From a virus: DNA of 42,843 nt. The stretch is taken from the IMG/VR virus record IMGVR_UViG_3300009183_000148, positions 1 through 42,843 of that record. The stretch is one strand, 5' to 3'. The notes beneath the pieces were generated by a model. That model saw only the letters and a program-made list of their open reading frames with translations, did no database searches and was not told the origin of the DNA. Below are positions 6,331 to 11,173 of the stretch, in pieces. The number at the start of each line of letters is the position of its first letter. The first letter of the stretch is position 1. Position numbers and translations under genes: made by a program.

Positions 6331-6355
6331 ACCCGGCTTTATGCCGGGTTTTTTT
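6331..6355 (+). terminator. Rho-independent terminator after gene 32
   Basis: ACCCGGC (6331-6337) and GCCGGGT (6343-6349) form a GC-rich 7-bp stem with a TTTAT loop, followed directly by a seven-T run (6349-6355). It ends plus-strand transcription. The hairpin also lies just past the stop of the minus-strand gene ending at 6354; on that strand it lacks a T-run, so it would be weaker for leftward transcripts. Confidence 0.92.
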
Positions 6356-8381
6356 ATGTCGCTCTGGCAGCGAGATTAGTTGCCGTATCTTTCGGTGCAG
6401 GAGCTTGAGCCACTTGCGTAGTATTCACAACTTTATTATTAGTGGTTGGTGCATTAACCACAATTGGTGTTGTTGGTTTTTGTTGTTGCCTTTGTTCAGA
6501 AGCAACCGCAGAAGAATTTGATGCCACTTGAGCACCCGATGGTGAGGATGCAGGAGCAGCACCAACAGAAGTAATCTTTGGATCATTCACATATGCCAAG
6601 AAATGTTTCTGTCTATCTTCTAAACCAATTGTACCACCATTGACAAACTTAGTGACCGCAGTAATATTACTCCAATCACCTTTGTAACCTGCCATATACT
6701 TCAATGCAGATTCGGCCGCACCGGCAGGTTGCGTTAATTCTTCGGGATTGTTTGCATAACCGAATCTTGTGTAGTTTTGTTTACCAGTTAACTGAATGAA
6801 TCCACGACCACGATATTCGTAACCTTCACCACCACCTTCTGGCGCATTACCCATTCTGCCGCCATAGATTCTTTCTGCAACTGCTTTCGGACCACCCGAT
6901 GCTACTTGTTGTGCATCATCTGGACTCTTAAACTTTTTAGGAAACAACTTAGTAAGTGTTGCGGCTTTATAATTTAAATTTTCGCTGAGTGTAGTGAAGT
7001 CACCAGATTCGTGACCAACTTGTGCCATAATAGCAGCACGCTTTGTTGGGTCAGTAATCTTTTCTTTGTCCATCTCCGCCAACATTGCTTTCTTACCAGT
7101 TTCAGACCCAATCTTACTTGGTTTTGCATCTGATGGAGAAGGTGGTTTAGCACTAGGCGCCGGTGCGGGAGCGGGTGCAGTAGTTGGTGCTGCCGTAGGT
7201 TTTGGCGGTGGTGCAGGTACTTCTTTACCAGAAGGAGTTGTAACTGGATAGACAACTGGTGGAGGAATGCCTTTTGCCGCCAGTTTTTTATTCTCAGCGT
7301 CAACCTCTTCTTTGGTCATCGGTACGAACTGACCTTTTTCGTCTAACTTTAACCTTTGTGTAGGTTGACCAGGTTTAGGTTTTTCTTCTTCTTTTTTCTT
7401 TCCAAAACCTAATTTTTCGGCAATGGCATCCGTAACAGATTTTAATTTTGCGGTTGCTTTATCATATGCATCTGTTACAAATTTAAGTTTTTCTTTTAAG
7501 ATATTGATATACTCAGTTATCTTATCGATAACACCTTTAATGAAGGCAAATGTTTGTGGAAATTCTTGAGCAAATAAATCTATTTTTTCACCAAACCAAT
7601 TACTAATTGCATCAACAACTTTTTTAACTGCATCGATGATTGGTTGAATAATCTCTTTTACTTTATCAATGATAGGTTGAACTACATCACTAAACCATTT
7701 CTTAAAGTCGCTTACAAATTCATCAAATTGTTCTTTGATTGATTCCCATAAACCACCAACCCATTCTGTAAACGATTCTTTAAATAAGTCATAAACAATT
7801 AATATAATACCTGCCAAATAAAAGTATTTGGTAAATGATTTGATAATCTTATTGATACCAAATTGATCCATGATTTTATCCATGAAACTTTTTGCTTTTT
7901 TGGCCACAGGTGCTTTTTCTGGAGTAGGCTTTTTCGATTCTTGTTCTTTTGCCCGTTCACTCTCTAGTTTTGCTTCCCGTTCATCGGCTTTCAAAAACTG
8001 TGCATCTGCTTTATTGGTTGATTCGCCGCCTTCTAATTTAACTAATTTTATGGAATTTTGTCTTGCAACATTCAGGTCACGAGCCATCAAATGGATGGAC
8101 ATGAAGTTTTTGGCAATAATTTTTAGAAAGGCATTTACATCATCACCAGATTCTTTCTCTGGTGTTGGTGTCGCTTCCACTTTAGGAGAACCTTTACCAA
8201 AAAAAGATTTTAAAGAACTGCCTACTGATTCTTTAATTGATTCTAGTTTAGGTTTTTGATTATCTTCTTCAGGAGAAGTTTTTTGTCTTTCGATTTTTTC
8301 TTTTCTTGCAGCTAATGCGGCACCACGCAAAGGATTGCCGTTTTTATCCAAGTGTTCTGATGGTGTATTATATTCTGCCAT
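6354..8381 (-). CDS. Tape-measure/hub-like virion protein with GH19 muralytic domain
   Basis: A 675-residue multidomain protein. Residues 79-140 are a module shared with the upstream paralogue (LKIIAKN..SI..MARD.NV.RQN, then KADA.FLK.DEREA). A hydrophobic segment lies near 186-200, followed by long amphipathic helices (200-325), a Pro/Ala-rich linker (370-425), a GH19 chitinase/lysozyme-like domain (about 430-605) with catalytic Glu458 (GHESGDF), an acidic loop before YRGRGFIQLTG (523-533), and a low-complexity C-terminus. The gene is last in the operon gp26-gp51-paralogue, where T4 has its hub and tape-measure genes. I infer a virion-carried, membrane-interacting protein that digests peptidoglycan at entry. 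A free endolysin is less likely given the helical and shared modules. Confidence 0.75.
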   Translation of the reverse strand: MAEYNTPSEHLDKNGNPLRGAALAARKEKIERQKTSPEEDNQKPKLESIKESVGSSLKSFFGKGSPKVEATPTPEKESGDDVNAFLKIIAKNFMSIHLMARDLNVARQNSIKLVKLEGGESTNKADAQFLKADEREAKLESERAKEQESKKPTPEKAPVAKKAKSFMDKIMDQFGINKIIKSFTKYFYLAGIILIVYDLFKESFTEWVGGLWESIKEQFDEFVSDFKKWFSDVVQPIIDKVKEIIQPIIDAVKKVVDAISNWFGEKIDLFAQEFPQTFAFIKGVIDKITEYINILKEKLKFVTDAYDKATAKLKSVTDAIAEKLGFGKKKEEEKPKPGQPTQRLKLDEKGQFVPMTKEEVDAENKKLAAKGIPPPVVYPVTTPSGKEVPAPPPKPTAAPTTAPAPAPAPSAKPPSPSDAKPSKIGSETGKKAMLAEMDKEKITDPTKRAAIMAQVGHESGDFTTLSENLNYKAATLTKLFPKKFKSPDDAQQVASGGPKAVAERIYGGRMGNAPEGGGEGYEYRGRGFIQLTGKQNYTRFGYANNPEELTQPAGAAESALKYMAGYKGDWSNITAVTKFVNGGTIGLEDRQKHFLAYVNDPKITSVGAAPASSPSGAQVASNSSAVASEQRQQQKPTTPIVVNAPTTNNKVVNTTQVAQAPAPKDTATNLAARAT

Positions 8382-10251: not shown

Positions 10252-10391
10252 TATCGTTTCTTAGTTTGTCTTTGTAATTCCAACCGGTCTTTTTCTTCTT
10301 TCAAATACTTCAATAGTAATTCAACATAAATGGTTCTTTCCCAAGGCAACATGTTTTCAAGTTCAGTCAAACTATACTTGTGATGTTGCAT
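10251..10391 (-). CDS. 51: gp51-like baseplate hub assembly chaperone, probably reached by -1 frameshift
   Basis: The conserved part is a short helical peptide from ATG 10391 (MQHHKYSLTELENMLPWERTIYVELLLKYLKEE...), resembling the small gp51 of marine T4-like phages. The open frame extends upstream to about 10505 inside gene 26, but that part is out of frame with the zinc ribbon of gp26 and looks unnatural. No ribosome binding site is evident before ATG 10391. A slippery sequence at 10457-10451 in gene 26 enters this frame by a -1 shift, which would give a gp26-gp51 fusion of about 307 residues. Both standalone and fusion products are possible. In T4, gp51 is needed for hub assembly. Confidence 0.72.
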   Translation of the reverse strand: MQHHKYSLTELENMLPWERTIYVELLLKYLKEEKDRLELQRQTKKR

Positions 10392-10401
10392 CAAAGCAAA
10401 G

Positions 10402-10457
10402 TTCGTCTGATAATAGTTGCCTAATGTATCATAACGAAAAATTAGACGAAAAAATTT
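10402..10457 (-). promoter_or_regulatory. Putative programmed -1 frameshift site, gp26 to gp51
   Basis: On the minus strand the zero-frame codons are CAA AAT TTT TTC GTC TAA. This contains A-AAT-TTT (10457-10451), a canonical X-XXY-YYZ slippery heptamer, extended by T-TTT-TTC. The next bases, TTCGTCT (10450-10444), can pair with AGACGAA (10408-10402) downstream. The -1 frame remains open to 10251. The stem begins immediately after the heptamer, closer than the usual 5-8-base spacer, so the stimulatory role is less certain than the slippery site. Confidence 0.6.
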
Positions 10458-11173
10458 TGCATGCCCTTTATTGCAATATCTTCTTCGTATGCACATTTTG
10501 GACACTTGAAGTGAACATCTTTTTTAATTTCAGGCATGGTATCAAAGAAGTCTTTAAACTTCTCTAAATCTTTTTGTTGTAAGTTATCAATAAATTCTTC
10601 CATTTCTTCTCTGGATGAATCTTTTGAATAATACACACTTTCTTTATCATAAACATAGTCGATGCAATCAACAAGAATTTTTAACATAACTTCATTCTCG
10701 TTCATCTTCTCATACTTCTGAATCATTTCAAAAGTAGGATACTTAAATGCAATACCAAGGTTTTCGGTAAGTTGAATTTTGTTTTTATGATTTGGATTCT
10801 TTGTTGGTTCAACTTCTAATAGATTGAGTTTGAATTCAACAACGCCACTACATTTCTTTTCTTCACCCGTTTCATCTTTAGTTGTATTGTTGCACTTATA
10901 ACGCAAGTCAACAATTTCTTCTACTGACCTTGCACGGAGATTCATAAACAAATACTCTAAATCGAATGTTGGTAATGAATCGATATCCATTTCATCAAGC
11001 ACACAGTTTCTCAATACTTGGCGAATAACACCAACCATCTCATTGCCGTCTGTTGATTCGGCTGCCATTAAAAATAGTTTCTGTTCTTTTACAAGAAATG
11101 GTCGGAAACGAATAGGTTTTCCTGTCGAAATTAAATTCACAGTATAAATTGGTACATCTAGTTTAGGTAACAT
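10442..11173 (-). CDS. 26: gp26 baseplate hub assembly protein (tail assembly chaperone)
   Basis: A 243-residue member of the T4 gp26 baseplate family. The N-terminus (LPKLDVPIYTVNLISTGKPIRFRPFLVKEQKLFLMA) is typical. Two Cys pairs, C94/C108 (RYKC...KKC) and C224/C227 (KCPKC), probably form a zinc site. The last codons hold a slippery AAATTTT followed by the TAA stop, and the -1 frame continues into gp51. Xenologous tail phages place a frameshifting chaperone pair just before the tape-measure gene, the same position as here. ATG 11173 has an upstream GAGG. In T4, gp26 is required for hub formation. Confidence 0.88.
   Translation of the reverse strand: MLPKLDVPIYTVNLISTGKPIRFRPFLVKEQKLFLMAAESTDGNEMVGVIRQVLRNCVLDEMDIDSLPTFDLEYLFMNLRARSVEEIVDLRYKCNNTTKDETGEEKKCSGVVEFKLNLLEVEPTKNPNHKNKIQLTENLGIAFKYPTFEMIQKYEKMNENEVMLKILVDCIDYVYDKESVYYSKDSSREEMEEFIDNLQQKDLEKFKDFFDTMPEIKKDVHFKCPKCAYEEDIAIKGMQNFFV

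Follow-up and report, generated by a model that had tools for sequence, protein, structure and literature searches.

A probable -1 frameshift joining gene 26 to the gp51 frame of a T4-like phage, and its likeness to G/GT-type tail assembly chaperones

The tail assembly chaperones of lambda (gpG and gpGT) and HK97 (Xu, Hendrix and Duda 2004) are reportedly made as a short and a long form by a -1 slip late in the gene. The same scheme is proposed here for gp26 and gp51 of a phage known from a viral sequence record. The idea has a precedent in T4-like phages: by the accounts given in PMC10885494 and PMC12846349, Vladimirov, Gautam and Davidson identified gp26 and gp51 as tail assembly chaperones of T4-like phages in 2022 (Virology 566:9-15, doi 10.1016/j.virol.2021.11.003). 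According to the first of these accounts, the paper shows that in some T4-like phages a short gene and a longer, fused one take the place of frameshifting; according to the second, it found slippery sequences of the poly-T type in T4-like short-form genes. Phage Adele and the tail assembly chaperones of Vandenendeviridae and Andersonviridae have a poly-T -1 slip site and a second ORF that is routinely annotated as a separate hypothetical gene, as here, with the motif GTTTTT where this phage has T TTT TTC (PMC12846349). An earlier sequence-only reading of the locus had proposed that gp26 and gp51 be recast as a G/GT-type chaperone system. That central claim is right in substance and gains from the match to the HK97 chaperone fold given below, but it was already published in 2022 and is not new. 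What is added here is therefore limited to four points: quantified conservation of the slip site, a folding peak at the junction, the HK97 chaperone fold match and an exception in Ackermannviridae.

The window, that is, the whole stretch of 42,843 nucleotides that was analysed, is IMG/VR record IMGVR_UViG_3300009183_000148, and it carries the locus on its minus strand (Table 1). In profile searches the gene 26 product matches PF12322 (E 8e-60) and phrog_150 (E 4e-66); the gene has a Shine-Dalgarno duplex energy of -7.5 kcal/mol at its start and ends in GGC ATG CAA AAT TTT TTC GTC TAA. The sequence-only reading was correct that these last codons contain A-AAT-TTT and T-TTT-TTC and that the -1 frame stays open through the junction, both of which can be read directly in the sequence; the -1 frame stop, at 10253-10251, overlaps the ATG of the next gene (TAATG). 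The -1 frame extension matches phrog_634 ('baseplate hub assembly catalyst', E 3e-27) and, as a separate hit, the final 56 positions of the phrog_150 profile (E 4e-9). Since that profile has 282 positions, of which gp26 covers 7-232, and its C-terminal part is matched by the -1 frame, some members of the family hold both parts in one chain.

Table 1. Features of the gene 26/gp51 junction in the window
Feature	Position	Strand	Remarks
Gene 26 (PF12322 T4_baseplate / phrog_150)	10442..11173	-	ORF; 243-aa short zero-frame product, TAC-N type
Slippery heptamer T TTT TTC	10448..10454	-	Zero-frame codons AAT TTT TTC; invariant in 79 close relatives
TAA stop of gene 26	10442..10444	-	One codon 3' of the slippery site
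-1 frame extension ('gp51', TAC-C type)	10254..10448	-	65 aa after the predicted slip
ATG proposed as gp51 start	10389..10391	-	Without ribosome binding site; ATG in 70/80 close-clade sequences
Candidate stimulatory stem	10402..10438	-	10438-10433 and 10431-10427 with 10412-10402; 9-nt spacer after the heptamer; weakly supported

We consider it very probable that this locus encodes a lambda G/GT-type tail assembly chaperone pair, made by a programmed -1 frameshift through which gp26 is extended into the gp51 frame. T TTT TTC is an in-frame heptamer of the canonical slippery form X XXY YYZ. Most ribosomes would stop at the TAA and release the short gp26, while a minority, positioned on T TTT TTC with tRNA-Phe in both the P and the A site, would slip back by one base, re-pair on TTT TTT and resume reading at CGT CTA ATT. 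The slipped product would consist of gp26 residues 1-242 followed by 65 residues ending at 10254, a predicted fusion of 307 aa, and the short and long forms together would chaperone the tape measure or hub proteins. Comparison establishes the conserved slip site, coding in the -1 frame up to that site, the lack of an alternative start, the homology of the fusion to the two-gene pair of T4 and a fold resembling that of tail assembly chaperones; frameshifting itself and how often it takes place, any part played by RNA structure downstream and a chaperone role in this phage are inferences.

Alignment of the junction in related phages, the check that the sequence-only reading had suggested, revealed a conserved slippery heptamer. 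In 79 of 80 relatives from viral contigs gene 26 ends in CAA A[AG]T TTT TTC Gxx TAA, with AAT alternating with AGT before the unchanging T TTT TTC; the one left out, L078, has an early stop in its gp26. In distant cyanophage relatives the two Phe codons are preceded by TCT, AGT, AAT, GCT or GAT, always with T as the third base. Across 31 clusters made at 70% identity, whose members are related, so that counts are not independent, NNT TTT TTY lies within the last five gp26 codons in 27, as against 8 of 108 other Phe-Phe pairs of the same DNA (7.4%), and by these counts its presence there exceeds chance. The clusters include Kyanoviridae, Straboviridae and phages of Stenotrophomonas, Caulobacter, Pseudomonas, Ochrobactrum, Acinetobacter and Aeromonas. 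Two heptamers had originally been put forward, and only T TTT TTC is upheld; A AAT TTT (10457-10451) is not conserved as a slip site, many close relatives having AGT TTT. A DNA-level search of phages gave no match, and a scan with the gp26 of D527 as query found no loci.

T4 itself is without a frameshift here: its genes 26 and 51 are distinct and are transcribed away from each other. Both of its products, gp26 (208 aa) and gp51 (249 aa), belong to PF12322. The profile of our gp26 matches T4 gp51 at 13-187 (E 3.8e-7) and that of the -1 extension matches it at 200-244 (hhalign E 6.9e-6). T4 gp26 ends just past ...GLKEFF, the same point as the short product of this phage, while T4 gp51 runs on. 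By sequence comparison, the two T4 proteins are paralogues, gp26 corresponding to the short product and gp51 being collinear with the predicted fusion, and T4 has in two genes what this phage appears to produce from one gene and a slip. The locus thus belongs to the T4 gp26/gp51 family by its PF12322 core and its collinear long form, and it resembles the T4-like gp26/gp51 of the 2022 work in its PF12322/phrog_150 family and its short and long forms; it differs from T4 in having one gene with a slip site rather than two. In T4-type gp26 the Phe-Phe pair is TTC TTT, not T TTT TTY, and no extension follows; in one more distant T4-type gp26 it reads G TTT TTT, with a -1 frame stop immediately after. 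Predicted models of the window gp26 (pLDDT 86) and a T4-type gp51 (pLDDT 85) have a similar order of elements, the latter with two additional C-terminal helices. A fold search of the PDB with the T4-type gp51 model gave nothing significant; among viral models it matched relatives of gp26/gp51, and a 'tape measure chaperone' of Citrobacter phage Moon came up as a weak match.

The N-terminal 84 residues of the gp26 model have the HK97 tail assembly chaperone 2ob9 as their top VIA-align match (Z 7.5, rmsd 3.6, 83 aligned residues), followed by 3klu (YqbN) at 7.3, 3fgx at 6.9 and 5ir0 (an ORF of a PICI-like element) at 5.7, after which the scores fall to 4.4 and 2.8. We take 3klu and 3fgx to be prophage chaperones of the XkdN kind. 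Foldseek alone gave an E of about 1 with probability 0.75. These matches are moderate evidence and support a tail assembly chaperone fold in the predicted N-terminal domain. A profile search of PDB sequences gave nothing convincing, and no sequence similarity to lambda gpG/gpGT or the HK97 chaperone was found by it. Our gp26 is larger than those proteins, with an extra beta-rich part, the heptamer differs from the G GGA AAG of lambda, and, unlike them, gp26 of the window clade carries CxxC-type motifs in its C-terminal region (FKCPKCAYEE and YKCNN...KKCSG). These motifs suggest metal binding, both in the window clade and in T4 gp26; in many cyanophages NPKTG takes their place.

Could gp51 instead be a small gene of its own, translated by coupled reinitiation at ATG 10391 or an equivalent codon after the gp26 stop? 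GenBank annotates it as separate in S-PM2, HTVC008M, Milchi, Cr30 and P-SSM2, and an ATG overlaps or adjoins the gp26 stop (TAATG, TGATG) in S-PM2, P-SSM2, Cr30, D527 and Marzo. Yet the heptamer is conserved in these same phages, where coupled initiation is possible as a second route. The window clade has no start near the stop: from the slip site to offset +50 the only ATG, GTG or TTG in the -1 frame of the close clade is a TTG at +20 in 18 of 80 sequences. ATG 10391, named earlier as the only sensible ATG and as lacking a ribosome binding site, does lack a Shine-Dalgarno sequence (duplex energy +0.1 kcal/mol, against the favourable value at the gp26 start), and the codon is not ATG in 10 of the 80. 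Furthermore, of the one-base codon differences between the gp26 stop and this ATG in the -1 frame of the close clade, 3351 are synonymous and 812 nonsynonymous, compared with 510/3163 and 845/3078 in the other two frames; judged by these ratios, the -1 frame evolves like protein-coding sequence all the way to the slip site, 17 conserved codons before ATG 10391. T4 gp51, as a full-length homologue of the fusion, also speaks against a separate gene, which we regard as very unlikely. Scarcely credible is the suggestion that T TTT TTC is kept only for coding Phe-Phe in both frames and that the gp51 frame is entered from GTG 10505 or ATG 10496 upstream. Phe-Phe is indeed read in both frames at the site, and this window does have those -1 frame codons, but only a few of the 80 relatives share them. 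A stop codon ends the upstream -1 frame some 25 nt ahead of the gp26 stop in many relatives, and about 10 nt ahead of it in some, which leaves no room, so an upstream start cannot replace frameshifting. The -1 fusion of gp26 and gp51 that the sequence-only reading had claimed is strongly favoured by the slip site, the coding -1 frame and the lack of an alternative start.

It is also conceivable, though improbable, that frameshifting is real but yields structural subunits of the hub and not chaperones of the G/GT type. Databases call gp26 a hub subunit, and a review of T4 cites genetic studies that place T4 gp26 in the hub; the same review, however, lists gp26 and gp51 as hub assembly chaperones, with gp51 required and absent from the particle (PMC3004832). 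The fold match of the gp26 model and the 2022 identification of chaperone genes, as relayed by PMC10885494 and PMC12846349, argue against structural subunits too.

The 7-bp pairing of 10450-10444 with 10408-10402, which had been placed just downstream of the slip, exists in this sequence, but it starts inside the slippery site and is not conserved, all seven pairs forming in only 2 of 11 distinct arm pairs of relatives, with no compensatory change. The 70-nt stretch that holds the 11-bp candidate stem of Table 1 has a folding z of -2.88, but the stem is not the minimum free energy structure when a slightly different 60-nt stretch is folded, and there are competing folds; no covariation of it was found in the close clade, and the one helix that RNAalifold gave is short and lies further downstream. 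When 50-nt stretches are folded in the 31 lineages, values are close to normal away from the junction and show a sharp peak there, just downstream of the slip site (mean z -2.06 versus -0.31 elsewhere, p 9e-7), with about half of the lineages below z -2. Because of this peak, a downstream hairpin is likely to be common across lineages, differing in form and weak in much of the window clade. The 31 representatives also have slight second dips (mean z about -1.1) at offsets of +200 and +300 relative to the gp26 stop, close to where the next gene begins. An internal Shine-Dalgarno sequence as stimulator was rejected as a general signal, at -5.7 overall versus -4.4 for synonymous shuffles; in this window no significant signal of this kind was found, and some cyanophages have a strong GGAGGG.

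Four of the 31 clusters, represented by SFP10, phiA8-29, SD25 and D494, are without T TTT TTY. The first three are Ackermannviridae by their records and D494 is unclassified; the four loci (L088 of SFP10, L194, L197 and L198) are Ackermannviridae-like, with NTT TTY at the gp26 end. At the slip position they have ATT TTC, CTT TTC or GTT TTT, and all retain a -1 frame extension of the same kind, which in SFP10 is unannotated. These phages may use a single-tRNA slip. We tentatively put forward, at somewhat less than even chances, that a downstream hairpin of lineage-varying form boosts frameshifting, that Ackermannviridae-like phages keep the fusion through [ACG]TT TTY, and that a single recoding event of ancient origin has persisted while its signals changed, giving way to a pair of separate genes in the T4 group.

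The fusion reading puts right how a core pair of tail genes is annotated. The gp51 frame is matched by 538 phage records, and the entries inspected treat gp51 as a separate tiny gene or omit it. The extension is absent from the GenBank annotation of ACG-2014h, ACG-2014d, avDM6 and avDM12-TAAL, where an apparent gap of about 160-270 nt lies between gp26 and the next gene. Sullivan et al. (2010, PMC3037559) had noted that cyanophage gp51 reaches only about 20% of T4 gp51 in length, a shortness that the fusion would explain, and 'gene 51', in this phage as in marine relatives, is best taken for the C-terminal portion of a predicted long form and not for a separate gene.

Downstream of the gp51 extension, also on the minus strand, lie a gene for a 622-aa protein (10251-8383) and one for a 675-aa protein (6354-8381). 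No clear profile match was obtained for the former, and blastp and phmmer comparisons with annotated or candidate tape measures gave no significant match for tape-measure identity. The 675-aa protein has an endolysin-like domain (432-596) and weak tape-measure profile matches, and it is partly paralogous to the 622-aa protein, with a shared stretch of 217 residues at 35% identity (E 3e-26), which may reflect duplication of a tape-measure-like gene.
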